64,000 nucleotides of DNA, from the NCBI GenBank assembly GCA_000611775.1, contig KK106981.1, positions 3,099,211 to 3,163,210 of the forward strand, in the 5' to 3' direction. Within the stretch, counting starts at the first letter, position 1; every line of letters begins with the position of its first letter. The position numbers and the translations under genes are program-made. The stretch comes from Umbilicaria muhlenbergii. Its lineage: Eukaryota > Ascomycota > Lecanoromycetes > Umbilicariales > Umbilicariaceae. The notes under the pieces were generated by a model. That model did no database searches. It worked only from the letters and a program-made list of their open reading frames with translations, and had not been told where the DNA came from. Below, one piece after another: positions 1 through 28,419 of this stretch.

Positions 1-3000
1 TCATAAAATCAAGATCATGAAAGATTACACACTGATGAAGCAACCTATCTACTCATTGTCACCTCAGAAGTTAAACGCTTTATGAGAATACTTAAAGGAA
101 AACTTACAAAAAGGATTCATATGAGAATCTCAATCTTCAGCTGAATATTCAATACTGTTCATGCCAAAATCAGATGGTTCACTTAGGTTGTGTGTTGACT
201 ATCAAGCATTGAACAACATAATCATCAAGAACAGTTACCCTTTGCTGCTCATTATGAAACTGCAGGATCAGTTTCAGGGAGTGTAATGATTCATCAAGTT
301 CAATATTTCAGGAGCCTTCAACCAGATTCATATCAAAGAAGGAGATGAATGAAAAATCACATTTTAAACAAGATCTGAACTCTATGAGTACCTGATAATG
401 CCTTTCAGATTAACAAACACTTCAGTGACTTTTCAGGCTTTTATCAATAACATACTGTGAGAATATTTAAATCAGTTCATGATCATCTACCTTGATGACA
501 TACTGATCTACTCAAAAAACAAGAAGCAGCATGTTCAGCATGTCTGAAAAATCCTGCAAGCACTTCAAGATGCAGGATTGCAGGTAAAGCCTGAGAAAAG
601 CCTTTTTCATTTCAAGGAAGTACACTTCCTAGGCTTCATAATAACATCAGAAGGGTTATGAATGAATTCAGAGAAAATATGATCTGTGGTTGAATGATCA
701 ATATCAAAGAATGTCAAGAAAGTACAGTCCTTCCTTGAGTTCATGAACTTCTATAGGAAGTTTATTGAAAAGTATTTGAAAATCACATCACCTCTAACAG
801 AGCTGATCAAGAAAGATTAAAAATTTAAGTGATCACCTGAAGCACAGAAAGTCTTCAATGAGTTGAAGAAGAAGTTCACTTCTCAACTGATTCTCATGAG
901 TTTCAATCCTGAGAAACTTATTACACTTGAGATGAACACGTCAGATGAAGCTATAGAAGCATGCATCAATCAGTCAGATGAAAAGAGACATCTATGATCA
1001 GTAGCTTTTTATTTAAGAAAGTTTTCAAGTGCTGAAATGAGTTACAAGATACATGACAAGGAGCTGTTAACAATTGTTGATGCATTCAAACAATGACATG
1101 TGTATCTGAAAGGACTTAAACATGAGGTTCAAGTATATTCAGATCATAAGAATCTATTGTATTTCATGATAATGAAAGTCTTAAATTGAAGACAAGTGTG
1201 TTGGTCAGAAGAATTGTCACAGTATAATTTTAAAATTCATTATCAAAAAGGATCAGAGAACATCAAAGTGAACACTCTCAATTAATGAGCTGATTACTTA
1301 CAAGACAAATCAATCATCAGTCATGCTATCCTTCAGAAGAATGAGCAAGGAGACATGTTTTTCAATAAACAGTTCAACCTCATCATACAGGTAGAGGATA
1401 ACATTTTTAAAGATGAGATTTGAAAAGTGTTGAAAAATGATAAGTTAGCACAGCAGGTTCTTCAGAATATTAAAGATCATGAAAGCTTTGAAAAGAAGAA
1501 AGACTTACTACTTTTTTAAGGCTTGATTTATGTTTCTATCAGTCTTCAACGGAAGCTAATAGGGGAAAGTCATTTCAACAAGACACATGATCACCAAGGA
1601 ATTAACAAAACAATAAAACAACTCACAAGAACATATTACTTCTCACACATGAGAAAGAAGATTAAAGAGATCATTTAAAAGTGTGACATCTGCTGAAGAA
1701 GTAAAGCAGATCAACATAAGTCATATGATTTACTCAAGTCATCAAGGACATCATCAAGATCATGAACAAGCATCACATTAAACTTTGTGATTAAGTTATC
1801 AAAGTCAAAAGAACCCCTGATGAAAGTAGTTTACAACTCAATATTAGTCATCACTGACAGACTTATGAAGTACAGATACTTCATACCTTATAATGAAGCA
1901 TCATCAGCAGAAGAACTTGCATATATATTTTTAAAAGTTATAACAGTCAATCATGAACTGTCAGAAGAGATAATCTCTGACAGAGATAAACTCTTCACCT
2001 TCAAGTTCTGAAAATCATTAATGAATCAGTTGAGGATTCATCACAAGTTATCAACATCATATCATCCTCAGATGAATGAACAGACAGAATGATTAAATCA
2101 AACTATGAAATAATATCTACAATGTTATGTTAATTATCAGCAAACTAATTGAGTAGAACTCTTACTGATAACTCAGTTAACTTACAACTCAGCAGCAACA
2201 GAGACAACTGAAGTATCATCATTTTACATCAATTACAGTTTCAACTCAGCTATGAATGAGGTCAGGAGATTAATAATGATAACATAATGAACAAGAGTAC
2301 AAGTGAACCACCTCAAGGACCTGCATGAAATGCTACAAAGGAACATCAAGTTTGCCTCAGAAAGATCAGCAGTATATTATAATAAAAAGAGAGATAAGAG
2401 ATCTACTCTCAAAGAGAGGGATAAAGTATACCTTCTACATCACAATATCAAAACAAAGCAGCTTAGCAACAAATTGAATCACATGAAGTTGAGATCTTTT
2501 TGAATTACAAAAACTAAGGGAAGTGTCAACTATGAGCTTGAACTTCCACTCACTATGTGAATACACTCAGTATTTCATGTATCACTACTTGAACCAGCGG
2601 ACCTGAAAGTATCAATACAAGCAAATCCACCAGAGATCAACCTGAAAAGTCAAGATGTCAAATTCAAAGTAGAGGAAATCCTAAATCAATAAGATATAAA
2701 TGATGAGTCACACTACCTGATCAAATGAAAAGGATATGATAGTGAAGGAAACACATGAAAATCAGAAGAAAATCTTACTCATTGTGCAGTGAAACTGCAT
2801 CAGTTTCAGCAAAGAAATCCATCAGAAGTCAGTTCATGTCATTGAAGTTAAAAACCTCAAGTGCAAGAAAGTTGAGGAGAGGCTTGTTAAAAGAATCAAC
2901 AGCTACAGCAGCTGCACACTTGTTCATCTTCAGCTCTTCAATGTTTTGAAGTTCAGTACAGATCAAGTCTGACTGCTTCTTTCTTAAAAAAGTGATCTGT

Positions 3001-3032
3001 TTGTGAAGTCTCTCTTTCTTCACTCTCATCTC

Positions 3033-3377
3033 TCACTTTTGTGTCATGACAGCATCCTTTTCCTTTTTCAGGTGACAGATCTTCACGCTCATCTTGTTGA
3101 TCTCCTTCAGAAATATGCACAAGTCACAAGAGATGCTCAGCTCAACACAAGTGTCACACTTATCATAATCATTCAACATCTTGCACTCCTTGCCACTGAT
3201 TAAACAGTGATTACACATTCTCATGACAACCCTTCTGTTCTTGGTGATCAAATCAGCCAGGTGAGAATGATGAGAAGTAGATGACTTCTTCTTTCTGATA
3301 CTGAATGAAGGCATGAGGAAGGTTGAAGTTTTTGAGGATGAAAACATTGAGGGGGGAGCTAATGTTACATCTCTCAC
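3033..3377 (-). other. Reverse-strand cysteine-rich open frame at the 3' end of the LTR element
   Basis: A 114-codon frame runs opposite to pol between the chromodomain and the LTR, and its 5' end lies in the LTR. It contains spaced Cys pairs (CNHC, CDTC, SCDLC), a zinc-knuckle-like arrangement, followed by a Lys/Glu-rich, coiled-coil-like stretch. It is treated here as a part of the fossil element. Whether it was ever an expressed antisense gene of this family is unknown to me, and no function is assigned. Confidence 0.35.
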
Positions 3378-4034: not shown

Positions 4035-5182
4035 TCAGGCAGTTACTTCAAGAATTCATTGTTTTTATGTTTCAGATATCAAGGCATGCTTTCAAGTGCT
4101 TTTGAACACTTGTTTTCACGCGTTTTTCATGCTCAATTTATGAAGATCTAGCTAATATTGATTAAGAGACTGTCACTCACCCCTCACCTCACCACCCTCC
4201 TGCCTTGCCGCCTCAACCTCATTATAACAGCTGGCTCATCATCACTGCTGTTGACATCACCTCACCCCCCCCTCCTACCAAATTTCTGAGGCAGCCTCAG
4301 CTAATGAAGTGCTGCTCAATTCTGCTCAGCCTGCCATGCAGTGAATCACTGACTGACAAGCTGAAATGACCTCATCAGGCCTTCTGAGACCCCTGGATAG
4401 AAAGGAGCCCCCTGAGCTCACTGCCCTCACTGCCCCTGAGATCTCATATCACTGAGACGGTTCATCACAGGGGCAAAGTCAGCAAACTGAGAGAGGGTTG
4501 TCTGCCCTGCAGCAGCCTCTTCAGAGGCCTGCTCTAATGTCTTCTCCTGCTGCTGCCCTCACCCTCTCTGCCTTCCCCGCCCTCATCACTCTTATCATCC
4601 TCACCGCCCTCCTCATCCTCCGCCTCCCAGTGCTCTCTGAGTCTCATCAGAGGAAGCCGCCTCAGCAAGCAGCTGTTGTGAGGCCTGTTGAGACTGCTGT
4701 CAGTCCCTAACGTGAGCAGCATGCTTCACAATCTCAAAGAGGAAGTAGTCCTGCTGAGTTGAGCTCTCTGACTGCCTGCCCTGACCTCTCTCATCACCCT
4801 GCTGCCTTCAAATGACCTCAGGGTCTTGAATATGGCTAACCTGTCCTAGAGCTGTCAGTTGTGAGTCTAGTACTTGCTCTGAAGCATGCTCTGAGGCTGA
4901 AACTGACTCTGCAGCTGATGAATCTGCCCTAATAAATGCTGGAGGAGAAGGAGAAAGAGAAGAATGAGGAAAAATGTCTAACAGATGATCTCAGAGGTGT
5001 CAGTGAGGATGAATATCATCTGATGTTGAAAGAACACCTGTCTTCACGCATCACTGAAGTTCATGACTGCATAGGAGACCAGTCATATGATGAAATACCC
5101 CTGAGCAGGCTGATGATTCAGGTCCTCAGCTGTTCATATCTCACTGCTTAAGCATCAGGTTAAGGGCTTCAAGACTGATCTG

Positions 5183-5632
5183 TCAGCTGAGCTGTCTAAA
5201 AACCTCAATATTATGATGATCACTCATGTGAGTCCTTGCTCTTTCAACTTGAGATGTATACTGATGCAGCTGATTTGTCAGGATAAGCTTTATACTCTCT
5301 AAAACCTGTAAAAGGTCTCCAGAGCTCATTTCAAAGGCCTGTTTCAGCACAGCGTGACTGCCTTCATCATGAGAGGTCACTAGGGTATTGAAATGCATAA
5401 CTTGATTGATCCAGGCTCTAACAAAGCGGGTTTTGAGAAGGCGGAACCAGGTATCATCCAGATAATCAATCAGACGCCAGAATTTATCATTCCACTTAAT
5501 TTTGAAGTCATCCCAGGCGGTATCAAAGTCTTCAGGGGTCAGGACATTGATTTGAGGCAGGCGCCTCATCCTCAGATGAGCTAACAAAGCGGGTTTTGAG
5601 AAGGCGGAACCAGGTATCATCCAGATAATCAA
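5183..5632 (-). pseudogene. MULE transposase C-terminal fragment
   Basis: A 149-codon minus-strand frame. Its middle reads like the C-terminal part of fungal MULE transposases: a Trp-rich segment, a short basic run, then TSHDEGSHAVLK and SSGDLLQVLESIK, matching the family pattern T-S-R-V-E-S-x-H-x-x-L-K followed by S-x-G-D-L. The frame enters a 163-bp tandem duplication at its 5' end, so the first ~50 residues repeat later sequence. No DDE region is present upstream inside the element. Downstream, toward 4534, the minus strand is rich in Glu/Asp codons, perhaps a former acidic tail. Family assignment rests on my memory of the motif and is moderately sure. Confidence 0.6.
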
Positions 5633-5743
5633 TCAGACGCCAGTATTTATCATTCCACTTAATTTTGAAGTCATCTCAGGCGGTATCGAAGTCTTCAGGG
5701 GTCAGGACATTGATTTGAGGCAGGCGCCTCATCCTCAGATGAG
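5418..5743. repeat. 163-bp direct tandem duplication inside the MULE relic
   Basis: Unit 1 is 5418-5580 and unit 2 is 5581-5743. Both begin CTAACAAAGCGGG and end CATCCTCAGATGAG. I count three differences between them, so the duplication is younger than most of the decay around it. Confidence 0.92.
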
Positions 5744-10623: not shown

Positions 10624-10715
10624 CTCATGGACTCTGAAATTTAGATCGCCCGTGTTAAGGATTCAGACATCAGATACGCTGTGATCTGTGTTGAAATTCG
10701 CCGATTCGCCGCCGA

Positions 10716-10750
10716 GCAGGGGTTTAGGGCAGGGGTTTAGGGCAGGGGTT
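10716..10750. repeat. 13-bp tandem repeat, about 2.7 copies
   Basis: The unit GCAGGGGTTTAGG is repeated at 10716, 10729 and 10742. It lies about 80 bp before the start of the large tandem duplication. Confidence 0.85.
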
Positions 10751-10820
10751 CTAGCGGGAAAAGCAGTCACGTCATAGGCGTACGTATGTCTAGGCTTAGC
10801 GAAAAGCTCCTAAACATGTA

Positions 10821-11434
10821 TATTAGCGGCTCGAAAGCCTCGAGTTTCTGCTTTCTTCCTTACGTTCATTTTATTCAATTTTGGACCGATATTTAGCTAG
10901 TGCAATAATACATTTATTTGGCCTCTAAATAATCGTCCATTACAACAATCTGGATAGTTCCAGGGTTCAGGCAGAGCAGCGATGTTAACTGGATCATAAG
11001 TGCATTCACTGACGGTGATGTACTGCCCTTCATGAAAGTTAAAGTCTGAATGCTCCGCCTGAAGTTCTGTCTGCTTGAGTAGTTTTGATTTGATGATTTC
11101 TAGCGGAGAGCCTCCCTCATTGCAGATCTGAATCTTACGCGTGACAGTGGTACCAGCCGTAACGACATCAAAGTCCGTTACTGGATTCAGATCATACTCG
11201 TCGCCCTCTCCGGTACTGATACTGAAACTAGTGATTGGAGATGTTGTCGCACTCCCCGTCATCAACACGTAGCTCACTCCACCATCAGGTCACACAGTGA
11301 AGATATTCTGTTGTATAGAACGAATATTTAGAGGCCAAATAAATGTATTATTGCACTAGCTAAATATCAGTCCAAATTGAATAAAATGAACGTAAGGAAG
11401 AAAGCAGAAACTTAAGGCTTTTGAGCTATTAATA
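10821..11434. mobile_element. 0.6-kb inverted-repeat (MITE-like) element, copy 1
   Basis: The two ends form an inverted repeat of about 110 bp: the left arm (10821-10930, containing TTCTGCTTTCTTCCTTACGT) matches the reverse complement of 11325-11434 with few differences, mostly C/T or G/A. Between the arms lies a 126-codon minus-strand frame resembling part of a secreted fungal protein. There is no transposase. Target duplication is unclear (TA-rich flanks). It looks like a short non-autonomous TIR element carrying a captured gene fragment. Confidence 0.75.
10897..11277 (-). CDS. ORF inside the TIR element: fragment of a beta-sandwich (ASH / choice-of-anchor-D like) domain, copy 1
   Basis: A 126-codon frame. 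The central part (TVTRKIQICNEGGSPLEIIKS) resembles the N-x-G-G-x-x-L-x-I pattern of ASH/choice-of-anchor-D type immunoglobulin-like domains that occur in large secreted fungal proteins, often together with WSC domains. The last ~14 residues come from the left TIR arm. No signal peptide is visible. I read it as a captured exon fragment rather than a functional gene; expression is unknown. Confidence 0.4.
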   Translation of the reverse strand: MSYVLMTGSATTSPITSFSISTGEGDEYDLNPVTDFDVVTAGTTVTRKIQICNEGGSPLEIIKSKLLKQTELQAEHSDFNFHEGQYITVSECTYDPVNIAALPEPWNYPDCCNGRLFRGQINVLLH

Positions 11435-12514
11435 TTATTAATCACTTTGAAATATTATTATTCCCTTTCATGATCCTGCTGATTAAGCTTATTATAATAT
11501 TAAATCTCTTTTGAATGACAGATGTTTTCCAGACCATTTCAGGGGTTTCTGAGACGTAAAGTCTTTGTGAACACCGTGTCTCTTTGAGTATTCTGGACTG
11601 AGGTCACTTTCTGGCACCTTGTGCGGTGCCGCTGATGCACGAGTCCACTGCATGCCGTGCCATATTCCTTCATAATCATCAAGGTAAGAAGTAGAGACCC
11701 ATCTTCTGTGATTGATCATCTCAAACACTAAGATTTAGAGCAAGTCCTAAAGGACGACAAGATGATGAAAAATATCTTGAGCAATAACATCGGCAGTCTG
11801 AACTCTTTCGTAGCTATCAAAATATCCGTTGCCTGAAATTCAAAATAAGGTAGGATCAAACATGACATGCAGCTACGCCCATATTGCACATGAGTTATGA
11901 CAGGGGTGGATATCTGTGATTCAAATTATGAGGAGTGTGCTTCGAGGAAAAACATGGTCACACGCGCACTTTTAAGCGCTCCTACCAACGATGGCCGGTA
12001 TCCCCTGAAAACGAAGCAGCCCAGACGTGCCCTCTCACGCCCCCCCAACTTAGACTCTGTTCAAGCAGCCAAGCCACTTGGTATATCACACTCATCTGAT
12101 GCGGCGGATCATTGGTTATCCTTCTCGGTCAGAGGATTTACAAATACGATGTCAAGCCATCCGCGACAGTAAAGACACTCTTGTTCGAATTGTTGTTACG
12201 TGCACACCTCCATCACGAGAGCAGGCAACATCATGATTCGCGAGGGCGTCTGGGAAATCAACCGTGCGATCAATCTGTGTGGGGAAAGACTTTGTGCAAT
12301 TGTACGGGCTGCTTCTCTTGCTTGGAGATGTCACCACACGGTGGGGGCTGCACCTCATTATGCAGTGAGCGAGAATGCTGCATGCATCCAAGATCTGCGA
12401 GATCGCCCGAGATCTACCCATGGAGAAAAGAAGAACCGTCATGGATCCCCATCTCACTACACCGCTGTTAGAAGCCCAGTCTACGCGTGAGGATCCAGCT
12501 GTCGAGGTCCAAAA
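11435..12514. other. Upstream region of the MFS gene, copy 1
   Basis: AT-rich to about 11900, then mixed. A 78-codon minus-strand frame at 11492-11728 (containing TSYLDDYEGIWHGMQW) has some coding flavour but no family I recognise. The 600 bp before 12515 presumably hold the MFS promoter, including a CGG-rich site near 12102. The same applies to 19074-20153 in copy 2. Confidence 0.4.
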
Positions 12515-14237
12515 ATGTCCCAGAAAACCGATATCGAGTCAACGATTGACAACGCCGAGAAGAAGTTGCCGCCAGAACAACTTCACGACAAACAAGGCTA
12601 CATTCTCGATGCGCGCCTGGTGTCCAACCACGGATTGAAAACGGACAAGACGGGACAAACAATCCTGTAAGCGCTCAGGTCTATCCTACCTGCCCTGATA
12701 CTAACCTCATAGCACAGAATACCGCAGCCCAGCGATGACCCCAACGATCCCCTCAACTGGGCCCAGTCCAAGAAGCTGGTCGTCCTCGGGGTCGTTGCGG
12801 CCTCGGCCTTCCTCCCCGAATTCGCAAGTGCAATGGGAATCATCACGTCGATCCCGCAAGCACGAGAATGGCATATCCCACAAAATACCGTCCTCCACAG
12901 TCTAGTCGGCAACCTGGCCATGCTTGGTTTCGGAGGCGTCTTCACCGTGGTGTGCATGACCTACTTTGGGAGACTGCCGGTGCTGTTCTGGTTCAGTCTC
13001 TTCGCCCTGTGGACGGCAGGTTTCTGCGCGGGGGCATCGACATTCAAAGAATTCATGGCGGCGAGGATCCTCAATGGATTCTTCTCCGTCGTTGCGTACA
13101 CTGGAGCCTTAATCTACGTCAACGACCTGTTTTTCCTCCATGAGCACGCTCGCAAGGTCAATGCTTGGGGCTTCTCCGTTCTGCTAGCACCGTATCTCAG
13201 TCCGCTGATTACGTCCTTTATGCTCACAAAGCTCAACTGGCGTTGGACTTTTGGTATCTATACCATCCTGGCTGGCCTCTCCCTGATCGCGATCGTGTTA
13301 TTTTCGGAAGAGACGTATTACGACAGGTCGATCCCTGCAGATCAGCAACCCAGATTCATGTCTCGTCTGAATCGCCTCATTGGTGTCGAGCAACTGAAGT
13401 CTCGACGCCTTCGTCCCAGCTTGGTCGGCGCCCTCATGCGCCCGATCAAAACGCTCTCGAAGCCTACAGTATTCATTAGCGCAATCTTCTACCTGTTAAC
13501 CTACATGTGGGGAATCGGTGCGTCGGTCCATGATCTGAAATCTCTCTGAATCTTTACTAACTACCTTCAAACCAAGGCATTAATGCTACTCTTAGCATAT
13601 TTCTACAACCACTTTACCATTTTGGTCCACGGCAAATTGGTAGGTCCCACCATCGTCCATGTTCAGGTAGTATAGCAAAAGTTCGACACGGTTGACACCT
13701 TGGAACTTAGGCTTCTTCTACTTTGCCCCCATCGTCGCCGCCATCCTCGGCTTCATCGTCGGTCACTGGCTCCACGACGCCGTTACCCACCTCTACATAC
13801 GCCGCCACGCTGGACACCTCGAGCCGGAAGCCCGACTCTTGGTGATATGGTTCTCGACGCCACTGATGGTAACCGGCATTGTGCTGGTAGGCTTCGCTCT
13901 GGAGCGCGGGTGGCATTACATGCTCACAGCCTTCGCATGGGGTCTCTATGTCTTCGGCCTTGTCATTACCACTGTTGCTATCAACGCATACAACCTAAGT
14001 TCATATCCAGAGGCGTCCGGAGAGGTTACGGCGTGGATCGGCTTTGCGCGCTCATTAGGTGGTTTCGTCGATACATATGTGCAGGTGGCGTGGGCCAGGA
14101 AGGTCGGACCGGCGAAGACGCTTGGTACACAAGCCGGCATTGTCGGAGCGGCGTTTCTCTTGATCGTGGGGATGCAAATCTTTGGAAAGAAATTGAGAAC
14201 TTGGAGTGGACCGTTGAATTTCAACACAACCAGATAA
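12515..14237 (+). CDS. MFS transporter (DHA1-type drug/metabolite:H+ antiporter), copy 1
   Basis: Four exons by splice consensus and family fit: 12515-12666, 12718-13517, 13577-13639 and 13711-14237, giving 513 residues. Introns are 51, 59 and 71 bp; the first has a perfect TACTAAC branch site. The cytosolic N-terminus ends in DDPNDPLNW, the usual entry signature of fungal DHA1-like transporters before TM1. About 12 hydrophobic segments follow, split by a central loop with EETYYDR and a basic stretch. The family exports drugs, toxins or secondary metabolites across the plasma membrane using the proton gradient; the substrate cannot be read from sequence. It is convergent with the cupin gene 190 bp downstream and in the same unit as a dehydrogenase, which suggests a small metabolite cluster (inference). 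The model appears intact. Confidence 0.88.
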
Positions 14238-14425
14238 GCAGTAGGAATAGTCATCAACATCGTGTCAATGATTATAGTCGGCGCGTCAGGAGCTCATGCC
14301 TGTCCTTATAAGAGCCTGCTTACACACACACATGTTCTTTGTTCCTCCTCTTGAATTGCCTTTAACGCTCTTTCGATTCCTTGAAATCTCGTTCAAACCA
14401 TAGCCATTCACGGACGCCACGTCCA

Positions 14426-15044
14426 TCATACGTCTCCTACAATTATAGTCGCATAACTCGCCATTGCCTTCCGATTCACATCCGGGCTGAGAGGCTTCCC
14501 CTCCTCGGCCATCTCAGACAGCAGCTTGAAATAATTGATGTAAAAGGCCGGCGTATAGGTGTTGAAGAACTTGGCCTCCTCGTCAAACGGATTCGAAAAG
14601 GTATGCGGTGCGCGAGTTGGAACAACGACTAGGTCACCTACTTTTGCGTCGATGTCGGGACGGCCGTTGGCATGGAAGCGCACGGTGCCGGCCGTGACGA
14701 GAAAAGTTTCGTCGTGCATCTCATGCCAGTGTTCAGGCGGGCCGGAGGTATGTGGGGGGATGGTGAGTTCAGCACAGCCGATGCGGTTGTCTGTGAGGAG
14801 GCAAGGTCAGCTCATCAGTAGTGTGAACTCGTGGCACGCGGAGAGAGACGTAAAGCTGAAGAGGAGCGGCAAATCAGGGTGAAGGGTCGTTGGGAATGCA
14901 AACGCATCAGGCAATTTCAATAAGTGAACCAGTACCGGTGCGAGAACCATCTTCTTGAACGCGGATGGTCAAGGTGCCGAGCTTGAAGGTGTCGCCTTCT
15001 TTGGCACGGACGAAGTTGATGGGCACAGAGGGAGTGGTCGCCAT
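14426..15044 (-). CDS. Small cupin-domain protein, copy 1
   Basis: Two exons on the minus strand, 15044-14936 and 14790-14426 (intron 145 bp), give 157 residues. The join restores GSRTDNRIG in frame. Cupin motif 1 is visible as PPEHWHEMHDETF...G (two His and a Glu for metal binding) and motif 2 as GDLVVVPTRAPHTFSN (third His). A single cupin of this size can be a metal-dependent isomerase, dioxygenase or epimerase; substrate unknown. No signal peptide, so probably cytosolic. It converges on the MFS transporter. Confidence 0.85.
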
Positions 15045-17229
15045 GCTTTGCCGCACTTGTTCTGGAGAATGCGTGGATTGGAATGACTTGCAACACCATG
15101 GATCTGGGATGTAGAACGTTATCGGCGTCCCCAAAGCTTGGGGCGGAGGATCGCGGAGCTTGGCTTACCCCTGTAGGCGTTCCCCGCAAGCTAAATAGCT
15201 GGGTAAGGTCTTACCCACGTATCTTACCTGCCACCCTACGTACTTGAATGGTCCATTTTTCACCCGCCAACCCGCACCGATGTCAGTGCAGTCTTTTGAA
15301 GAGGCATCGCGATCGAAGAACACTCCGCCAGACCTTTGAGGCTCAATTCGGGGTCATGTGTTGTACATCTGATCTTTTATTCACTAAAAGTGTATTGCAT
15401 AGAGATATGCAAATGCCGACAGCACCGGATGAGGCCCTGGTATCAAGGGGAATGGGACATCGTCGAAGATATGAAAATACTCAGGCCGAGTGCAGAGGGC
15501 ATCCATCCGTCTCTGCAATTAGATAAGCCTGACACTGTTACGCAAGCTGTGACACCGCGGAGAGATGTGCGGAGGCCGTGGAGAGCTTTGTAGTGATGAA
15601 GAGGAAATCGTGACATGTGTTACCGTAGAATACAGAAGAGAAGGAATCGTGGTTGGCTTCAAAACCAGGCAGACTTTCCAGACCGACTTCCAACGGCACT
15701 GAAGTGTCCCGTGGGCTTGCATTTGCATTAAGGGAAGAATGTGTCCAATGACTCGAGTCCACGAAGTGTCCGACTAATTCCTCTCCTTCGCTACCTCATC
15801 ATTAATCTATTCGCAAACACCCAAGGAGGTCTAGATATCTTTCCGCTTACTCTCTCACACCAACACGCGTCTGATGGACTAACAGAACTTCAACACTAAC
15901 TCCCCGGCAATGTCAACCATTTAGTCTTCCGGCAGCGCTGATGCAAAACATCACCGACCGCCTCAATTACGCGGATCATCTCAGCCTCAGGATCGGCTCG
16001 AAAACGCTTTGGCACGGGCGAGAACACATCCCAAACCCCAGCAAAACTGACTGGCTGACCTTCAACCGCACCTTCAAGAAGACCCGTCGATGCAAGTATT
16101 CAACCCCTATCTACAACAACTGCGCCCGGCTTCTTCCTCTCCTCTCCTTCGAAGACAAGATGACAGCCAAGACCAAACCCTAGACCCGTGCCTGCAATTT
16201 CTGCTACTTCTCTTGCGAGGAGAAGTATTTCCGCAAGAAGAAGCGGTTCCCCCGAGAGGAACTGCGGTGTTTTCCGCTGCGATCTCTATCCCCAGCTGGT
16301 CACTTGTGGCATAGAACAAGGACGACAGAACTGGAAAATTGCGCGCGATGACAATCAGTTCGAGAAGATGAAAATAGTGCTTTGCAATGTGTGTTTGACA
16401 GTGATGAAAAAGTATGGGTAAGTTGCAAGCTACGATGCCACGCGGCCGCGGGACGCTCTCTGATGCGACAGTTCTAGAAACCCTTTTGGTCTGGCTGATA
16501 TCGCTCGGAGCCTCCTGGTGGCATTATGTGGGGGGCTGTAAGGCAGAAGTCTTTAACGCAGAGGTCCATCAGCTACTGCACCATGATGGTTGAGCGAGAT
16601 GAGCTCTTATCGAGTAGTTCCCGCTACCCCGGACGCTGAAGAACGGCGCGCTACGGTAGGGACACTTGCCACGCCGGACCTGTTCCTTGACGCGGGCGAG
16701 GCGGGCTTCTCAACGAGGTATCACCTATCGAGCCTGTCTTCCTCGACGCTGCTAACATGCGCCCGAGGTCGACGACCATCATCAATGCATGTGCAGATGG
16801 AGCGTCCCTCGCCCGTACCCATATTGGGAGATCCACGCTTGCAAGCCCACACAGCAAAACCGACGATGCATCTCGCCGTCCGAAGTCTTGAGCGGTGCCA
16901 CAATGATAGCTGTACGACCAAGACCCCGCATGATCTATGGGCACCTCCTTTATCTCCCTGTCCTACAGCCTCATCGCTCTATTCTCCGTCTTGACAAGCC
17001 CCCTTGCCCCGCTCAGATGCAACCCCGCATTCGAGCCCTCCTCAGCGGCTACGGATAGCTCTATATGTCTCTTCCCCAGCCTCAGAAAGCTCTTACATCT
17101 CCTGTCTGTCGAGCAAGCCTCACCAACCCCTCCATGTCCCAGAAAACATTAACCCAGCAAGAACATTAACCTAGCACCAACAATCACACCCTCAAACAAA
17201 CCTCATCTATCCTCCCGACCCCATCAACC
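15045..17229. other. Unresolved stretch between cupin and dehydrogenase, copy 1
   Basis: 2.2 kb with no gene I can model. Two places look coding: 16100-16440 (a Cys-containing region around ACNFCYFSC and later LCNVCLTVMKKYG followed by a GTAAGTTG donor-like site) and 16680-16900 (a frame with FLDAANMRPRSTTIINA). A multi-exon or decayed regulatory gene is possible; the Cys spacing does not match Zn2Cys6. The cupin promoter must lie just above 15045 and the dehydrogenase promoter just below 17229. The region near 15200 has clustered TACCTTA/TAAGGT-type motifs. Confidence 0.4.
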
Positions 17230-18539
17230 ATGGGCCTCCCCACCACCCAAAAGGCCGCCGTCTGCGAAACCCCCCGGCCTCGACACCGGCCGCGCCACCA
17301 TCAAAGACATCCCCGTCCCCCACCCTTCCGACGACGAAATCCTCGTCAAACTGCACATGTCCGGCCTCTGCCACTCCGACGTCCACCTCATGCGCGACGA
17401 CTGGAGTTCCCGCGGCCTCAAAATGCAGGTCCAAATCGCCGGCCACGAAGGCGCCGGCGTCGTCGAAGAAGTCGGGAAGAACGTGACCAAGTTCAAGGTT
17501 GGCGATCGCGCGGGCATCAAGTGGGTTGTCAGTACGTGTGGGGACTGCGAGTATTGTCTCAATGGCAGGGATGAGCTGCATTGCGCGCGCCAGAGGAATA
17601 GCGGCTTTACGGCCGAGGGGACCTTTCAGCAGTACTGTGTGACGAGTGGGAGGTATGCGACCAAGATCCCCGGAGGGGGTCAAGGATGAGGAGGCCGGGC
17701 CGGTATGTCCTTCTCCTAAGCCGCAAAAGTCCATTTCCTCATCGCCCCATTCCCCGCTCCCCGACCGAGGCACCCTCCTCTCCCCCCGTGACAGCCTCTC
17801 TCCTTGCTGCCCCTTACCCTGCCCAGGCCACTACTCACATCCCATGGTACAGATCATGTGCGGCGGCGTCACCGCCTCCACGGCCCTCAAACGCTCCGCC
17901 GTCAAACCCGGCCAATGGGTCGTCCTCCCCGGCGCCGGCGGCGGCCTCGGCCACTTCGCCGTCCAATACGCAAAAGCAATGGGCATGCGCGTCATCGCCA
18001 TCGACGGCGGCGCCGAAAAGGGCGACCTCTGCATGCAGCTCGGCGCGGAGCATTATATTGATTTCACGACCGAAGACGATATCGTGGGGAGGGTTCGGAA
18101 GGTTACGAAGTTGGGAGCGCACGGCGTCGTTGTGACTGCCGCGTCCAAGAGCGGGTATGATTCCGCGCCGCACTTTTTGAGGGCGGGGGCCACCATGGTC
18201 GCGGTCGGGTTGCCCAAGGAGGAGTTTTTGGTGGGCGCGAGCCCGTTTCAGTTGGTGCTGGGGAAGTTGAATATTGTGGGGAGCGTGACGGGGACGTTGA
18301 AGGATGTGGATGAGGCGTTGGATTTTACGGCGAGGGGGTTGGTCAGGCCCATGTTGGACAAGGGGACGATGGCTGATATTAATGAGCTGAGCGATCAGAT
18401 GTTGGCGGGGAAGTTGTCGGGTCGGCGGTTATTGATCTTTGGGCTTGGCGGGAAGGACGGAGGGGGGGGTCGAAAGCCTCGAGTTTCTGCTTTCTTCCTT
18501 ACGTTCATTTTATTCAATTTTGGACCGATATTTAGCTAG
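17230..18539 (+). pseudogene. Zinc-dependent alcohol dehydrogenase, frameshifted, copy 1 (3' end replaced)
   Basis: Medium-chain zinc ADH of the fungal ADH1 type: GLCHSDVHLM and GHEGAGVVEEVG carry catalytic zinc ligands, CGDCEYCLNGRDELHC the structural zinc Cys, and GAGGGLGHFAVQYAKA the NAD-binding loop. The ATG at 17230 opens a frame that is one base out of step with the enzyme after a C6 run at 17270-17275. A second one-base excess lies at about 17668-17679 (CCCCGGAGGGGG), just before an intron at 17703-17852. In this copy the last codons run through the G run at 18462-18469 into the inverted-repeat element and stop at 18539. The enzyme would oxidise primary alcohols or reduce aldehydes in the cytosol. 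Whether the frameshifts are real or sequencing errors in G/C runs is open. Confidence 0.75.
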
Positions 18540-19073
18540 TGCAATAATACATTTATTTGGCCTCTAAATAATCGTCCATTACAACAATCTGGATAGTTCC
18601 AGGGTTCAGGCAGAGCAGCGATGTTAACTGGATCATAAGTGCATTCACTGACGGTGATGTACTGCCCTTCATGAAAGTTAAAGTCTGAATGCTCCGCCTG
18701 AAGTTCTGTCTGCTTGAGTAGTTTTGATTTGATGATTTCTAGCGGAGAGCCTCCCTCATTGCAGATCTGAATCTTACGCGTGACAGTGGTACCAGCCGTA
18801 ACGACATCAAAGTCCGTTACTGGATTCAGATCATACTCGTCGCCCTCTCCGGTACTGATACTGAAACTAGTGATTGGAGATGTTGTCGCACTCCCCGTCA
18901 TCAACACGTAGCTCACTCCACCATCAGGTCACACAGTGAAGATATTCTGTTGTATAGAACGAATATTTAGAGGCCAAATAAATGTATTATTGCACTAGCT
19001 AAATATCAGTCCAAATTGAATAAAATGAACGTAAGGAAGAAAGCAGAAACTTAAGGCTTTTGAGCTATTAATA
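18470..19073. mobile_element. Inverted-repeat element, copy 2 (left end clipped)
   Basis: Identical to the element at 10821-11434 except that its first ~10 bp are missing, because the tandem duplication starts there. The dehydrogenase of unit 1 runs directly into its left arm. Confidence 0.8.
18536..18916 (-). CDS. ORF inside the TIR element, copy 2
   Basis: Same 126-codon frame as at 10897-11277, identical in sequence. Its stop codon lies in the left TIR arm, just downstream of where the unit 1 dehydrogenase reads in from the other strand. Confidence 0.4.
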   Translation of the reverse strand: MSYVLMTGSATTSPITSFSISTGEGDEYDLNPVTDFDVVTAGTTVTRKIQICNEGGSPLEIIKSKLLKQTELQAEHSDFNFHEGQYITVSECTYDPVNIAALPEPWNYPDCCNGRLFRGQINVLLH

Positions 19074-20153
19074 TTATTAATCACTTTGAAATATTATTAT
19101 TCCCTTTCATGATCCTGCTGATTAAGCTTATTATAATATTAAATCTCTTTTGAATGACAGATGTTTTCCAGACCATTTCAGGGGTTTCTGAGACGTAAAG
19201 TCTTTGTGAACACCGTGTCTCTTTGAGTATTCTGGACTGAGGTCACTTTCTGGCACCTTGTGCGGTGCCGCTGATGCACGAGTCCACTGCATGCCGTGCC
19301 ATATTCCTTCATAATCATCAAGGTAAGAAGTAGAGACCCATCTTCTGTGATTGATCATCTCAAACACTAAGATTTAGAGCAAGTCCTAAAGGACGACAAG
19401 ATGATGAAAAATATCTTGAGCAATAACATCGGCAGTCTGAACTCTTTCGTAGCTATCAAAATATCCGTTGCCTGAAATTCAAAATAAGGTAGGATCAAAC
19501 ATGACATGCAGCTACGCCCATATTGCACATGAGTTATGACAGGGGTGGATATCTGTGATTCAAATTATGAGGAGTGTGCTTCGAGGAAAAACATGGTCAC
19601 ACGCGCACTTTTAAGCGCTCCTACCAACGATGGCCGGTATCCCCTGAAAACGAAGCAGCCCAGACGTGCCCTCTCACGCCCCCCCAACTTAGACTCTGTT
19701 CAAGCAGCCAAGCCACTTGGTATATCACACTCATCTGATGCGGCGGATCATTGGTTATCCTTCTCGGTCAGAGGATTTACAAATACGATGTCAAGCCATC
19801 CGCGACAGTAAAGACACTCTTGTTCGAATTGTTGTTACGTGCACACCTCCATCACGAGAGCAGGCAACATCATGATTCGCGAGGGCGTCTGGGAAATCAA
19901 CCGTGCGATCAATCTGTGTGGGGAAAGACTTTGTGCAATTGTACGGGCTGCTTCTCTTGCTTGGAGATGTCACCACACGGTGGGGGCTGCACCTCATTAT
20001 GCAGTGAGCGAGAATGCTGCATGCATCCAAGATCTGCGAGATCGCCCGAGATCTACCCATGGAGAAAAGAAGAACCGTCATGGATCCCCATCTCACTACA
20101 CCGCTGTTAGAAGCCCAGTCTACGCGTGAGGATCCAGCTGTCGAGGTCCAAAA

Positions 20154-21876
20154 ATGTCCCAGAAAACCGATATCGAGTCAACGATTGACAACGCCGAGAA
20201 GAAGTTGCCGCCAGAACAACTTCACGACAAACAAGGCTACATTCTCGATGCGCGCCTGGTGTCCAACCACGGATTGAAAACGGACAAGACGGGACAAACA
20301 ATCCTGTAAGCGCTCAGGTCTATCCTACCTGCCCTGATACTAACCTCATAGCACAGAATACCGCAGCCCAGCGATGACCCCAACGATCCCCTCAACTGGG
20401 CCCAGTCCAAGAAGCTGGTCGTCCTCGGGGTCGTTGCGGCCTCGGCCTTCCTCCCCGAATTCGCAAGTGCAATGGGAATCATCACGTCGATCCCGCAAGC
20501 ACGAGAATGGCATATCCCACAAAATACCGTCCTCCACAGTCTAGTCGGCAACCTGGCCATGCTTGGTTTCGGAGGCGTCTTCACCGTGGTGTGCATGACC
20601 TACTTTGGGAGACTGCCGGTGCTGTTCTGGTTCAGTCTCTTCGCCCTGTGGACGGCAGGTTTCTGCGCGGGGGCATCGACATTCAAAGAATTCATGGCGG
20701 CGAGGATCCTCAATGGATTCTTCTCCGTCGTTGCGTACACTGGAGCCTTAATCTACGTCAACGACCTGTTTTTCCTCCATGAGCACGCTCGCAAGGTCAA
20801 TGCTTGGGGCTTCTCCGTTCTGCTAGCACCGTATCTCAGTCCGCTGATTACGTCCTTTATGCTCACAAAGCTCAACTGGCGTTGGACTTTTGGTATCTAT
20901 ACCATCCTGGCTGGCCTCTCCCTGATCGCGATCGTGTTATTTTCGGAAGAGACGTATTACGACAGGTCGATCCCTGCAGATCAGCAACCCAGATTCATGT
21001 CTCGTCTGAATCGCCTCATTGGTGTCGAGCAACTGAAGTCTCGACGCCTTCGTCCCAGCTTGGTCGGCGCCCTCATGCGCCCGATCAAAACGCTCTCGAA
21101 GCCTACAGTATTCATTAGCGCAATCTTCTACCTGTTAACCTACATGTGGGGAATCGGTGCGTCGGTCCATGATCTGAAATCTCTCTGAATCTTTACTAAC
21201 TACCTTCAAACCAAGGCATTAATGCTACTCTTAGCATATTTCTACAACCACTTTACCATTTTGGTCCACGGCAAATTGGTAGGTCCCACCATCGTCCATG
21301 TTCAGGTAGTATAGCAAAAGTTCGACACGGTTGACACCTTGGAACTTAGGCTTCTTCTACTTTGCCCCCATCGTCGCCGCCATCCTCGGCTTCATCGTCG
21401 GTCACTGGCTCCACGACGCCGTTACCCACCTCTACATACGCCGCCACGCTGGACACCTCGAGCCGGAAGCCCGACTCTTGGTGATATGGTTCTCGACGCC
21501 ACTGATGGTAACCGGCATTGTGCTGGTAGGCTTCGCTCTGGAGCGCGGGTGGCATTACATGCTCACAGCCTTCGCATGGGGTCTCTATGTCTTCGGCCTT
21601 GTCATTACCACTGTTGCTATCAACGCATACAACCTAAGTTCATATCCAGAGGCGTCCGGAGAGGTTACGGCGTGGATCGGCTTTGCGCGCTCATTAGGTG
21701 GTTTCGTCGATACATATGTGCAGGTGGCGTGGGCCAGGAAGGTCGGACCGGCGAAGACGCTTGGTACACAAGCCGGCATTGTCGGAGCGGCGTTTCTCTT
21801 GATCGTGGGGATGCAAATCTTTGGAAAGAAATTGAGAACTTGGAGTGGACCGTTGAATTTCAACACAACCAGATAA
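20154..21876 (+). CDS. MFS transporter (DHA1-type), copy 2
   Basis: Exact second copy of the gene at 12515-14237, with exons 20154-20305, 20357-21156, 21216-21278 and 21350-21876 (513 residues). I saw no base difference. If both copies are real the organism carries two promoters and two full coding regions, so dosage is potentially doubled. The downstream neighbour is again the convergent cupin gene. Confidence 0.88.
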
Positions 21877-22064
21877 GCAGTAGGAATAGTCATCAACATC
21901 GTGTCAATGATTATAGTCGGCGCGTCAGGAGCTCATGCCTGTCCTTATAAGAGCCTGCTTACACACACACATGTTCTTTGTTCCTCCTCTTGAATTGCCT
22001 TTAACGCTCTTTCGATTCCTTGAAATCTCGTTCAAACCATAGCCATTCACGGACGCCACGTCCA

Positions 22065-22683
22065 TCATACGTCTCCTACAATTATAGTCGCATAACTCGC
22101 CATTGCCTTCCGATTCACATCCGGGCTGAGAGGCTTCCCCTCCTCGGCCATCTCAGACAGCAGCTTGAAATAATTGATGTAAAAGGCCGGCGTATAGGTG
22201 TTGAAGAACTTGGCCTCCTCGTCAAACGGATTCGAAAAGGTATGCGGTGCGCGAGTTGGAACAACGACTAGGTCACCTACTTTTGCGTCGATGTCGGGAC
22301 GGCCGTTGGCATGGAAGCGCACGGTGCCGGCCGTGACGAGAAAAGTTTCGTCGTGCATCTCATGCCAGTGTTCAGGCGGGCCGGAGGTATGTGGGGGGAT
22401 GGTGAGTTCAGCACAGCCGATGCGGTTGTCTGTGAGGAGGCAAGGTCAGCTCATCAGTAGTGTGAACTCGTGGCACGCGGAGAGAGACGTAAAGCTGAAG
22501 AGGAGCGGCAAATCAGGGTGAAGGGTCGTTGGGAATGCAAACGCATCAGGCAATTTCAATAAGTGAACCAGTACCGGTGCGAGAACCATCTTCTTGAACG
22601 CGGATGGTCAAGGTGCCGAGCTTGAAGGTGTCGCCTTCTTTGGCACGGACGAAGTTGATGGGCACAGAGGGAGTGGTCGCCAT
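22065..22683 (-). CDS. Small cupin-domain protein, copy 2
   Basis: Identical second copy with exons 22683-22575 and 22429-22065 (157 residues). All metal-ligand residues are retained. Confidence 0.85.
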
Positions 22684-24868
22684 GCTTTGCCGCACTTGTT
22701 CTGGAGAATGCGTGGATTGGAATGACTTGCAACACCATGGATCTGGGATGTAGAACGTTATCGGCGTCCCCAAAGCTTGGGGCGGAGGATCGCGGAGCTT
22801 GGCTTACCCCTGTAGGCGTTCCCCGCAAGCTAAATAGCTGGGTAAGGTCTTACCCACGTATCTTACCTGCCACCCTACGTACTTGAATGGTCCATTTTTC
22901 ACCCGCCAACCCGCACCGATGTCAGTGCAGTCTTTTGAAGAGGCATCGCGATCGAAGAACACTCCGCCAGACCTTTGAGGCTCAATTCGGGGTCATGTGT
23001 TGTACATCTGATCTTTTATTCACTAAAAGTGTATTGCATAGAGATATGCAAATGCCGACAGCACCGGATGAGGCCCTGGTATCAAGGGGAATGGGACATC
23101 GTCGAAGATATGAAAATACTCAGGCCGAGTGCAGAGGGCATCCATCCGTCTCTGCAATTAGATAAGCCTGACACTGTTACGCAAGCTGTGACACCGCGGA
23201 GAGATGTGCGGAGGCCGTGGAGAGCTTTGTAGTGATGAAGAGGAAATCGTGACATGTGTTACCGTAGAATACAGAAGAGAAGGAATCGTGGTTGGCTTCA
23301 AAACCAGGCAGACTTTCCAGACCGACTTCCAACGGCACTGAAGTGTCCCGTGGGCTTGCATTTGCATTAAGGGAAGAATGTGTCCAATGACTCGAGTCCA
23401 CGAAGTGTCCGACTAATTCCTCTCCTTCGCTACCTCATCATTAATCTATTCGCAAACACCCAAGGAGGTCTAGATATCTTTCCGCTTACTCTCTCACACC
23501 AACACGCGTCTGATGGACTAACAGAACTTCAACACTAACTCCCCGGCAATGTCAACCATTTAGTCTTCCGGCAGCGCTGATGCAAAACATCACCGACCGC
23601 CTCAATTACGCGGATCATCTCAGCCTCAGGATCGGCTCGAAAACGCTTTGGCACGGGCGAGAACACATCCCAAACCCCAGCAAAACTGACTGGCTGACCT
23701 TCAACCGCACCTTCAAGAAGACCCGTCGATGCAAGTATTCAACCCCTATCTACAACAACTGCGCCCGGCTTCTTCCTCTCCTCTCCTTCGAAGACAAGAT
23801 GACAGCCAAGACCAAACCCTAGACCCGTGCCTGCAATTTCTGCTACTTCTCTTGCGAGGAGAAGTATTTCCGCAAGAAGAAGCGGTTCCCCCGAGAGGAA
23901 CTGCGGTGTTTTCCGCTGCGATCTCTATCCCCAGCTGGTCACTTGTGGCATAGAACAAGGACGACAGAACTGGAAAATTGCGCGCGATGACAATCAGTTC
24001 GAGAAGATGAAAATAGTGCTTTGCAATGTGTGTTTGACAGTGATGAAAAAGTATGGGTAAGTTGCAAGCTACGATGCCACGCGGCCGCGGGACGCTCTCT
24101 GATGCGACAGTTCTAGAAACCCTTTTGGTCTGGCTGATATCGCTCGGAGCCTCCTGGTGGCATTATGTGGGGGGCTGTAAGGCAGAAGTCTTTAACGCAG
24201 AGGTCCATCAGCTACTGCACCATGATGGTTGAGCGAGATGAGCTCTTATCGAGTAGTTCCCGCTACCCCGGACGCTGAAGAACGGCGCGCTACGGTAGGG
24301 ACACTTGCCACGCCGGACCTGTTCCTTGACGCGGGCGAGGCGGGCTTCTCAACGAGGTATCACCTATCGAGCCTGTCTTCCTCGACGCTGCTAACATGCG
24401 CCCGAGGTCGACGACCATCATCAATGCATGTGCAGATGGAGCGTCCCTCGCCCGTACCCATATTGGGAGATCCACGCTTGCAAGCCCACACAGCAAAACC
24501 GACGATGCATCTCGCCGTCCGAAGTCTTGAGCGGTGCCACAATGATAGCTGTACGACCAAGACCCCGCATGATCTATGGGCACCTCCTTTATCTCCCTGT
24601 CCTACAGCCTCATCGCTCTATTCTCCGTCTTGACAAGCCCCCTTGCCCCGCTCAGATGCAACCCCGCATTCGAGCCCTCCTCAGCGGCTACGGATAGCTC
24701 TATATGTCTCTTCCCCAGCCTCAGAAAGCTCTTACATCTCCTGTCTGTCGAGCAAGCCTCACCAACCCCTCCATGTCCCAGAAAACATTAACCCAGCAAG
24801 AACATTAACCTAGCACCAACAATCACACCCTCAAACAAACCTCATCTATCCTCCCGACCCCATCAACC
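22684..24868. other. Unresolved stretch between cupin and dehydrogenase, copy 2
   Basis: Identical to 15045-17229; the coding-looking patches fall at about 23739-24079 and 24319-24539. Confidence 0.4.
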
Positions 24869-26157
24869 ATGGGCCTCCCCACCACCCAAAAGGCCGCCGT
24901 CTGCGAAACCCCCCGGCCTCGACACCGGCCGCGCCACCATCAAAGACATCCCCGTCCCCCACCCTTCCGACGACGAAATCCTCGTCAAACTGCACATGTC
25001 CGGCCTCTGCCACTCCGACGTCCACCTCATGCGCGACGACTGGAGTTCCCGCGGCCTCAAAATGCAGGTCCAAATCGCCGGCCACGAAGGCGCCGGCGTC
25101 GTCGAAGAAGTCGGGAAGAACGTGACCAAGTTCAAGGTTGGCGATCGCGCGGGCATCAAGTGGGTTGTCAGTACGTGTGGGGACTGCGAGTATTGTCTCA
25201 ATGGCAGGGATGAGCTGCATTGCGCGCGCCAGAGGAATAGCGGCTTTACGGCCGAGGGGACCTTTCAGCAGTACTGTGTGACGAGTGGGAGGTATGCGAC
25301 CAAGATCCCCGGAGGGGGTCAAGGATGAGGAGGCCGGGCCGGTATGTCCTTCTCCTAAGCCGCAAAAGTCCATTTCCTCATCGCCCCATTCCCCGCTCCC
25401 CGACCGAGGCACCCTCCTCTCCCCCCGTGACAGCCTCTCTCCTTGCTGCCCCTTACCCTGCCCAGGCCACTACTCACATCCCATGGTACAGATCATGTGC
25501 GGCGGCGTCACCGCCTCCACGGCCCTCAAACGCTCCGCCGTCAAACCCGGCCAATGGGTCGTCCTCCCCGGCGCCGGCGGCGGCCTCGGCCACTTCGCCG
25601 TCCAATACGCAAAAGCAATGGGCATGCGCGTCATCGCCATCGACGGCGGCGCCGAAAAGGGCGACCTCTGCATGCAGCTCGGCGCGGAGCATTATATTGA
25701 TTTCACGACCGAAGACGATATCGTGGGGAGGGTTCGGAAGGTTACGAAGTTGGGAGCGCACGGCGTCGTTGTGACTGCCGCGTCCAAGAGCGGGTATGAT
25801 TCCGCGCCGCACTTTTTGAGGGCGGGGGCCACCATGGTCGCGGTCGGGTTGCCCAAGGAGGAGTTTTTGGTGGGCGCGAGCCCGTTTCAGTTGGTGCTGG
25901 GGAAGTTGAATATTGTGGGGAGCGTGACGGGGACGTTGAAGGATGTGGATGAGGCGTTGGATTTTACGGCGAGGGGGTTGGTCAGGCCCATGTTGGACAA
26001 GGGGACGATGGCTGATATTAATGAGCTGAGCGATCAGATGTTGGCGGGGAAGTTGTCGGGTCGGCGGTTATTGATCTTTGGGCTTGGCGGGAAGGACGGA
26101 GGGGGGGCGGTGGGGAGTTGTGGGATGAATTGGGCTGGTGGGTGGAATGTGCTGTGA
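24869..26157 (+). pseudogene. Zinc-dependent alcohol dehydrogenase, frameshifted, copy 2
   Basis: Same gene as 17230-18539 with exons about 24869-25341 and 25492-26157. Both one-base excesses (24909-24914 and about 25307-25318) are present here too. This copy keeps the original 3' end, a Gly/Trp-rich extension that stops at 26157 and is longer than the usual ADH C-terminus; the true end may be earlier in another frame. A shorter protein starting at ATG 24996 would lack about 40 N-terminal residues, and because that ATG lies in the frame used between the two shifts, it would still meet the second shift. Confidence 0.75.
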
Positions 26158-26905
26158 GGGTTGGGCAGGAGGTTGTGGTGTGGATAGCTCATTGGGAATC
26201 CGGGAGCCATGGCTACGGCAACCTTTTTAAGTTTCACTGCTGCTTTGACCAGTCTTCATCAGTTCTAGGCTGTAAGATCATCCAATGATGCCGCAGTATC
26301 CATCATCCTCTTGACGCGAGCGGGTGCAGCTGTGGTGAGTGCTTTACGCAGCCAAGCGATCTGAGTGCGGGAGACGCTCGGCTGATGCGCTGAGCGCTGG
26401 GCATGAAGGGTGCCATCTCTACTAATTGCTTGCGGGAGAACGGGATGGGGAATCCCCTGGATGAAGTCGTACGATGGGACTAAATTTTGCTCAACGTCTT
26501 TTGTAGCTTAGGTCTTCGGATGGGAACAAAAGAATGGTAGCTGATATGAGACACGGAACTGGTGCTTTCTAGACTGATGAAGTGCTTAGCCGTTCTTCAG
26601 CATGCTGGGTACTGGGAGCTACTCGATAAGAGCTCATCTCGCCTTGCCCAGCCAATCTCAACCATCATGGCGCATTAGCTTATGGACCGCTGCGTTACAG
26701 ACCTCTGCGTTAGAGACCTCTGCCTTACGGGTCTCTGCTTATGCGCAAGGAACTCTATTCCTTGCGTTCCCAACCCCACAATCTAACGCCGGTTCAACAT
26801 GCATACGGGGTGAATCTAATCTCCAAGTGCACTCTATAACCAACGCCAATGCCCCCGACTCCCTGAAATGCTCTATGCCCCGAGACGCCATCAATGCAAG
26901 ACTCC
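26158..26905. other. Intergenic region, right edge of the accessory block
   Basis: No gene seen. A 15-bp tandem repeat of three units (GCGTTACAGACCTCT and variants) lies at 26692-26736. The region separates the duplicated block from the conserved GH76 gene. Confidence 0.6.
26692..26736. repeat. 15-bp tandem repeat, three copies
   Basis: The units GCGTTACAGACCTCT, GCGTTAGAGACCTCT and GCCTTACGGGTCTCT follow each other without spacers, downstream of the GH76 stop codon. Confidence 0.8.
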
Positions 26906-28419
26906 TCAGCTTAAAGGCACCGCAATCGCAATGGCAACGCAAAGGATCCCACCCGCGCCTGTAACTCCCATGCTTCTCGCTCCCGCTCCCTTCTTTCCCG
27001 GCGCCGTCGTGGCACTCGCGGGCGCCGTCGGCACCGGTACGCTGCTCATCGACGCGGCCACAGCGATTCGGACGTTTGGCTCCGTCAGCGGGGGCGCCGT
27101 GTCGTTGATGAGGAGCCCCTGGATGACTTCCAACGCCGAAATCTGCTCGCCCACACCATATACATTGTCGAACGAATCCGTGTACCATCTCGATCCGCAC
27201 GTCACGTTGTCTTTGCCCCCGGAACATGCCGCCGCAGCACCCCGAGCCGAGGGCCGGAGGAGACCCATGATGGCACCCCGAGTGTACGGTGCCACTTGCG
27301 TCGTTGCCCACATCCAGCGCGCCAGGTATGCTTTGAAGCTTTGAGCGTCGTTGTTGCACGACGAATCCTTCTCACACATCGTTTCGTACATGACGTTCGT
27401 TGCGTTGGGGAAGGGCGAAAAGAAATAGGCGGCCGCATTGAGTAGACCGGTCGTTCGAGCCTCCCAGACGGTGGAGCCATTGGTGTAGTTGTAGAGGACG
27501 GCGGCTCCGTAGAGGAAAATGCCCACGTTGTACGTCTCTTGGTCGTGATCGACGGCGGTGCAGTTGATGGTGTCGTCCGTACCATCAAACACGTTATATT
27601 TGTTGTCGATCAAGCCCACCCGAGCGGTCCAGTCCCAGATCTTCTCAGCCCAATCCACATAGGTCTGGTTTCCCGTGTAGCGTGCCAGCCGGGCGGCCAG
27701 CTGAAAGAATCCCCCGTTGGCAACCGAGTTCTTGTAGTTATAGCCAGCATTCGAGCTGAAGATCTGCCATTTCAATCCTCCAGCACACGTCGTCATGTCC
27801 CAGCGTGGTACCTGTGTGTTCCATAGCGCTTCGACGAGAGGCAGCCATTGCGGGGACGTTGACGGTGGCGCGGGGTAGTTCTTTTCGAGGGTGGACATGA
27901 CAGCAAAACCCCAGAATGACTGATCATCATTGCCTTCATCGAACTGTTGCGCCGGAACCATGTAGTCATGATTAGGTCCTACTTGGCTGAGGAGTGCTTG
28001 TGTCGTGACGTTGTTGTAAGTTGTGTCGTTCGTGTAGTACCAGTAATCGACCAGGGCCCCCCACATTGCGCCAGCCTCCCACCTGCACGGGACAAGCGTC
28101 AGTGAAGACAGCTTCGCAGGACACGAAGACGACAGGAGTAGCCTCACCAATAGTAAGGGGGAGGAAGCAGTCCAACTTGACTTGTAGTGACATTGCCGGT
28201 GTAATACGACATCATACCGTAGGCGATAGTACTGGCTGCATTTTGAATTGATGCTGGCAGGAGATATCAGTGCGATCAGCAAGACACGGTGCAAGGATTG
28301 GAAGCCCTGGGAATGCTGAGGTGCTCCCTACCAGGGTCATCAATGTCCAGCTGAAGGGCAGCGGTGAGCTGTAGTCCGGCCGCGACCAGCGCAGCGCAGC
28401 AGATGCGCGAGGTTATCAT
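26906..28419 (-). CDS. GH76 mannan endo-1,6-alpha-mannosidase (DCW1/DFG5 type), GPI-anchored
   Basis: Three exons, 28419-28332, 28253-28148 and 28082-26906, give 456 residues. Residues 1-21 are a signal peptide and mature sequence starts near LQLDIDDP. The paired catalytic aspartates are D117-D118 in [12 protein letters not shown], and [11 protein letters not shown] (63-73) is the family's conserved first motif. There are several N-glycosylation sequons. The C-terminus has a Ser/Thr/Ala-rich spacer and a hydrophobic tail typical of a GPI signal. Dcw1/Dfg5 enzymes are thought to process GPI mannan so that cell-wall proteins are transferred to glucan. Introns are 78 and 65 bp. The 5' flank contains two short minisatellites. 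Confidence 0.92.

Follow-up and report, generated by a model that had tools for sequence, protein, structure and literature searches.

A 64,000-nucleotide stretch of the Umbilicaria muehlenbergii genome (contig KK106981.1, positions 3,099,211 to 3,163,210 of assembly GCA_000611775.1; referred to as the window) contains two adjoining copies of a 7,639-bp unit with transporter, cupin and dehydrogenase genes. This locus raises the question of whether the fungus recently duplicated the segment or whether the assembly wrote it twice. An earlier note had described a head-to-tail duplication without visible divergence, which was borne out: the copies are identical at 7,638 of 7,638 positions. The note had also argued that such an undamaged repeat must be very recent, or lie in a genome that no longer applies repeat-induced point mutation (RIP), or be an assembly product, and two of these three explanations found support. 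We favour, with a probability of roughly 0.55, an assembly product in which one real 7.6-kb copy was written twice; even a genuine duplication would hardly stand out in this genome.

The repeat unit and its edges

Copy 1 occupies positions 10831..18469 and copy 2 positions 18470..26108. At a period of 7,639, the stretches 10831-18468 and 18470-26107 are identical, and false tandem duplications are recognized by such identical or near-identical copies. The nearest mismatches beyond the unit are 10830 (C) against 18469 (G) on the left and 18469 (G) against 26108 (C) on the right; thus the last base of copy 1 is a G and that of copy 2 a C. The copies adjoin directly, head-to-tail, without Ns between them, and the 294 Ns of the window were seen as one run (43959-44252). 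All repeated 96-mers inside the window come from this repeat, at offset 7,639. Three DNA searches covering the unit (10831-12000, 11436-15100 and 15101-18469) found only two full-length copies in the whole assembly (34,788,950 bp, 7 contigs), and a third copy or a source locus elsewhere was therefore rejected. The observed/expected ratio of CpG is 0.952 in each unit, and with zero differences there is no C-to-T decay, the mark of a RIP target, between the two copies.

The left edge lies within a solo long terminal repeat (LTR) of 259 bp (10689..10947, forward strand). It was classified as such by its single LTR, its ends (TGTTG...CAACA) and its target-site duplication, ATCTG, at 10684..10688 and 10948..10952 on the same strand. 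The family sample comprised 29 matches aligned from 20 fetched places; 19 of them were full length, and 12 of these 19 have a perfect 5-bp target-site duplication, two of the 12 being one sequence (the second duplicate described below). The unit starts on the same base as an exact repeat of 106 bp (10831..10936, forward strand) shared with the LTR at C3:2079347. The first 96 bases of this repeat occur at three places in the assembly, namely both units and C3:2079347, each time preceded by a different base (C, G and T), which makes the unit edge a branch point. The k-mer size K of the assembler ALLPATHS-LG is 96. Among the fetched places, exact matches of at least 96 bp to the window were 10727-10825, 10831-10936 and the copy of the latter at 18470-18575. 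Within the 259 bp of the LTR, only four edges of such exact blocks were seen; if a break occurred in the LTR, the unit edge would fall on a block edge by chance in about 1.5% of cases, a rough figure that rests on the fetched places. Copy 2 starts with a truncated LTR, its last 117 bp (18470..18586, forward strand).

An inverted 3' fragment of the same LTR family lies at 11309..11435 on the reverse strand (18948-19074 in copy 2). Reading 10820-11435 as a terminal-inverted-repeat element that had captured part of a gene was rejected by alignment of family members, in which the LTR extends leftward, ends in CAACA and has 5-bp target-site duplications, the second arm being the inverted LTR fragment. 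The segment between solo LTR and inverted fragment (10948-11310) is 79% identical to C4:42354-42716 and contains a 130-aa open frame without a Pfam match; likewise, the inner open reading frame 10897-11289 gave no Pfam match. At C3:2079000-2080000 (L034), two inverted solo LTRs stand about 34 bp apart with their flanking 5-mers (ATAGC and CTCGG) swapped, resembling the outcome of an inversion between two insertions.

The right edge coincides with the end of a run of seven Gs (26101..26107 in copy 2, forward strand) in a G-rich stretch of the dehydrogenase tail. Recombination between LTRs was rejected as a cause of the duplication because no LTR is present at this edge. The junction (18462..18470) consists of eight Gs followed by TCGAAAG; its base 18469 is a G, while the parent positions 10830 and 26108 are both C. 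There is no microhomology beyond GG. An inverted repeat of 77% identity has one arm just inside (16533-16647) and one just outside (26589-26718) the right end of the unit.

A second near-exact duplicate and the state of other repeats

When two fetched LTR places identical over 683 bp were extended, another duplicate was found: C2:4128129-4137529 and C1:10652347-10661747 (L050-L053) align without gaps over 9,401 bp with one mismatch, the C1 copy lying 2.5 kb from the end of C1. On the left, the duplicate stops, within one base, where the LTR R1 has its outer end; R1 measures 267 bp and matched in full at 18 other places with a rounded identity of 100%. On the right, the duplicate stops at the outer end of R2, an element of 481 bp whose ends are inverted and which has about ten other long matches. 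Repeat-bound edges of this kind are a typical product of short-read misjoins. In C1, ACTGC stands on either side of R1, whereas the flanks of R1 in C2 are ACAAC and ACTGC; for R2, TGAA stands on either side in C2 but not in C1. A first reading of this target-site test, one wrong flank per copy, was weakened by the finding that the C2 flank of R1 is repeat-derived: the C2 sequence before R1 is identical over 628 bp to C4:4485416 and over 299 bp to C2:6127285, ending five bases before R1. R1 could in C2 form the terminus of a longer transposon, which leaves the test ambiguous on the left. Three outside copies of R1 (L048, L063 and L064) have no target-site duplication. Upstream of both 9,401-bp copies, C2:4121486-4122900 and C1:10642800-10644214 are identical over 1,415 bp; since this pair contains another R1 plus flanks known from other R1 places, it was tentatively read as a transposon. 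Identical 267-bp LTRs occur in young copia-type elements at L065, L066 and L067, in recurring sets (forward, reverse at about 993 bp, then forward or reverse some 4 kb off); together with inverted halves, these sets form an odd architecture that is possibly assembly-made.

Heavy transition decay in the neighbourhood, as claimed earlier, was found in a Gypsy-type retrotransposon (named by eye) at about 1..3350 on the forward strand, but not in the form of the classical CpA-to-TpA index. At least 40 long copies of the element exist across the assembly: 40 of the 43 listed matches span most of the query at 86-90% identity, and one 100% match is the window itself. Its CpG observed/expected ratio is 0.043 over 201-3350, and its TA/AT ratio of 0.58 is not raised; eight Gypsy copies, including that of the window, range from 0.04 to 0.20 and from 0.58 to 0.64, respectively. 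Per kb of window positions 1-5000, CpG observed/expected is 0.03-0.21 and TA/AT is likewise not raised; decay in this region is a loss of CpG, unlike the classical RIP index. A 163-bp tandem repeat of two copies with 98% identity follows at 5418-5743. Retroelements make up 4% of the U. muehlenbergii genome according to the accessible part of a comparative study (PMC9232553).

Young repeats of several kb present another picture. Three copia-type stretches, one of them typed by Pfam (gag, integrase), have CpG observed/expected ratios of 0.93, 0.89 and 0.93, and the decay expected if RIP were active now was not found in them. Two of these places have stretches of 4,627 bp (99.6%) and 2,413 bp (99.4%) in common, and the third shares 1,554 bp at 99.9%, identities that a short-read assembler can inflate by filling repeats with the same letters, yet it cannot restore CpG content. 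That a long repeat is intact therefore calls for no special explanation through RIP, and RIP does not force the conclusion that the unit is very recent. The option that RIP is no longer applied is supported by the undecayed young copia stretches (0.89-0.93), next to which stand the decayed Gypsy copies (0.04-0.20). Cytosine methyltransferase domains (PF00145) scored above the cut-off at four places. L018, DIM-2-like by eye, has a BAH domain at 30.3 bits, just below the cut-off of 30.8; L019 is RID-like by eye, its methylase region being split by a likely intron; L021 is interrupted by a stop and is a broken relative of L020. As putative DIM-2-like and RID-like genes thus remain, gene loss probably does not explain the lack of decay.

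Assembly product or recent duplication

The genome of U. muehlenbergii KoLRILF000956 was sequenced on Illumina HiSeq2000 only and assembled with ALLPATHS-LG and SSPACE 2.0 at 663-fold coverage into 34,812,353 bp in seven scaffolds (PMC3999499); the assembly analysed here is presumably the same one. Contig ends often contain misassemblies, as the authors of GapFiller state in the accessible text (PMC3446322). The edges of the unit, at the start of the 106-bp repeat and the end of the G7 run, resemble ends of short-read contigs, and repeat or homopolymer edges are expected of a false duplication. An assembly product is for this reason our first choice, favoured by the short-read origin, the branch-point left edge, the run of Gs, a junction base that fits neither flank, the perfect identity and the presence in this assembly of the 9,401-bp duplicate, whose edges likewise lie at repeats. 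One contig would have extended from the left flank across the segment, ending at the run of Gs in the tail of the dehydrogenase; another would have started at the branch point in the solo LTR and crossed this segment as well, reaching into the right flank. Due to be overlapped by 7.6 kb, the two would have been placed end to end instead, with the G at 18469 as a contig-end miscall of the true C. Several observations weigh against this scenario. The two ends lack the overlap that an assembler would normally use to merge them, and reads spanning the junction may exist; neither Ns nor a gap, as a false join might leave, mark position 18469. The only N gap in the window does start three bases past a C7 run, but 22 of the 24 G or C runs of at least seven bases in the window, one of them a G11, lie at no visible break, and genuine breakpoints, too, tend to lie in repeats and G-rich DNA. 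A control search with 37,541 bp of window sequence from outside the unit (17,793 + 19,748) yielded no long second copy, the best matches being 179-219 bp at 72-80% and a 130-bp match at 77% into the unit itself; false duplication is therefore not general. The 9,401-bp duplicate may be real, and because the repeat-derived C2 flank of R1 weakens it as a precedent, the odds of an artefact were lowered from 0.62 to 0.55. Finally, repeats are more usually collapsed than expanded by short-read assemblers (PMC5518131 and PMC4237348, as far as their accessible text goes), and the former speaks of tandem and segmental duplicates that tend to be lost, with 'captured only 40%'.

This tendency equally speaks for a real, recent tandem duplication, a reading that we hold more tentatively, with somewhat less than an even chance. 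Non-homologous joining or template switching would have linked the G-rich dehydrogenase tail to the solo LTR, RIP-like mutation sparing young repeats. The join is clean and non-homologous, free of Ns and with a single untemplated base at most; its string occurs only once in the assembly, as expected of a unique, novel junction; and LTRs and G-rich tracts are plausible break sites. The young copia-type copies of several kb are undecayed, and survival of the unit is therefore possible. However, the left edge matches the repeat branch point to the base, and an exact repeat of 7.6 kb exceeds what most short-read libraries can resolve. The event would also have to be young, as zero differences in 7,638 bp set an upper bound on its age of about 20,000-196,000 years under assumed rates of 1e-8 to 1e-9 substitutions per site per year. 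That the duplication is real and that the fungus, which formerly decayed retrotransposons at CpG, now spares young repeats despite its RID-like and DIM-2-like genes, so that long gene-bearing duplications and copia elements persist, is less probable still; LTRs would then be frequent edges of new gene-bearing duplications. Quite improbable is a real junction in a chromosome without a tandem repeat, derived from circular DNA of the unit in culture, from a mate-pair library circle of a 7.6-kb fragment, or from a dispersed copy mis-threaded through the LTR. A circle or circularised library fragment would yield the same end-to-start junction without homology, and library types are not given in PMC3999499; however, single chimeric molecules should vanish at the reported coverage, and neither a third copy of the unit nor a second copy of the junction was found in the assembly.

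If the tandem repeat is false, it invalidates gene counts as well as any claim of a 'recent expansion' of the transporter block, and the remaining near-exact duplicates of this reference (at least one, of 9.4 kb) should be checked too. If it is real, the young duplication would be useful for watching whether RIP-like mutation still works, and U. muehlenbergii can be transformed (PMC3999499).

Gene content and comparison with known systems

Pfam domains in the unit are MFS_1, Cupin_2, ADH_N and ADH_zinc_N, in agreement with the transporter-cupin-dehydrogenase block described earlier, except that the dehydrogenase frame is broken. The MFS transporter gene (12515..14237, forward strand; 20154-21876 in copy 2) has four exons and an open frame of 513 aa. 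Its product is 54-57% identical to three full-length fungal relatives, and the closest relatives found have 83% identity. A small Cupin_2 protein of 157 aa is encoded, likewise in an open frame, by two exons on the reverse strand (14426..15044; 22065-22683 in copy 2). The zinc alcohol dehydrogenase (17230..18469, forward strand; 24869-26157 in copy 2) has coding parts in three frames: start codon, first domain and second domain each lie in a different one, in both copies alike. Its tail enters the LTR in copy 1 and reaches a stop at 26155-26157 in copy 2. Judged by these frames, the dehydrogenase is taken as a broken gene, and the identical breaks mean that the damage predates any duplication or that the copies are one sequence. 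The proposal of an efflux or detoxification cluster was thus not upheld: the unit lacks intact co-located enzyme genes, the dehydrogenase domains being out of frame at the same places in both copies, and nothing marks the MFS protein as an exporter. A GH76 gene lies beside the repeat (26909-28327), with Lasallia pustulata as best named match (88% identity over 83% of the query). A tRNA scan yielded no genes.

Literature searches on the species and on false duplications listed no paper on the 7.6-kb repeat, and the accessible parts of PMC12492740, PMC12543289 and PMC10620189 added nothing on the duplication. In Umbilicaria pustulata, copia elements are similarly younger and most active and Gypsy elements broader in identity; the terms RIP and repeat-induced do not occur in the accessible text of that study (PMC8773270). 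RIP with RID and DIM-2 in Cladonia rangiformis, as far as described in the accessible part of PMC12542154, resembles the situation here in its heavily decayed old retrotransposons and in genes that, judged by eye, resemble both kinds of methyltransferase, whereas U. muehlenbergii shows CpG loss with a TA/AT ratio of about 0.6 and leaves young multi-kb copia elements untouched. Recent tandem segmental duplications in fungi are likewise head-to-tail, contain complete genes and have non-homologous junctions; here, by contrast, the left edge coincides with the branch point of a repeat. False segmental duplications in draft assemblies differ in that those of PMC9516828 are haplotype-driven, whereas the culture should be haploid and the cause here would be an unmerged contig overlap, and in that the present junction lacks Ns; they are alike in their identical adjacent copies, their edges at repeats or homopolymers and their origin from short-read data.

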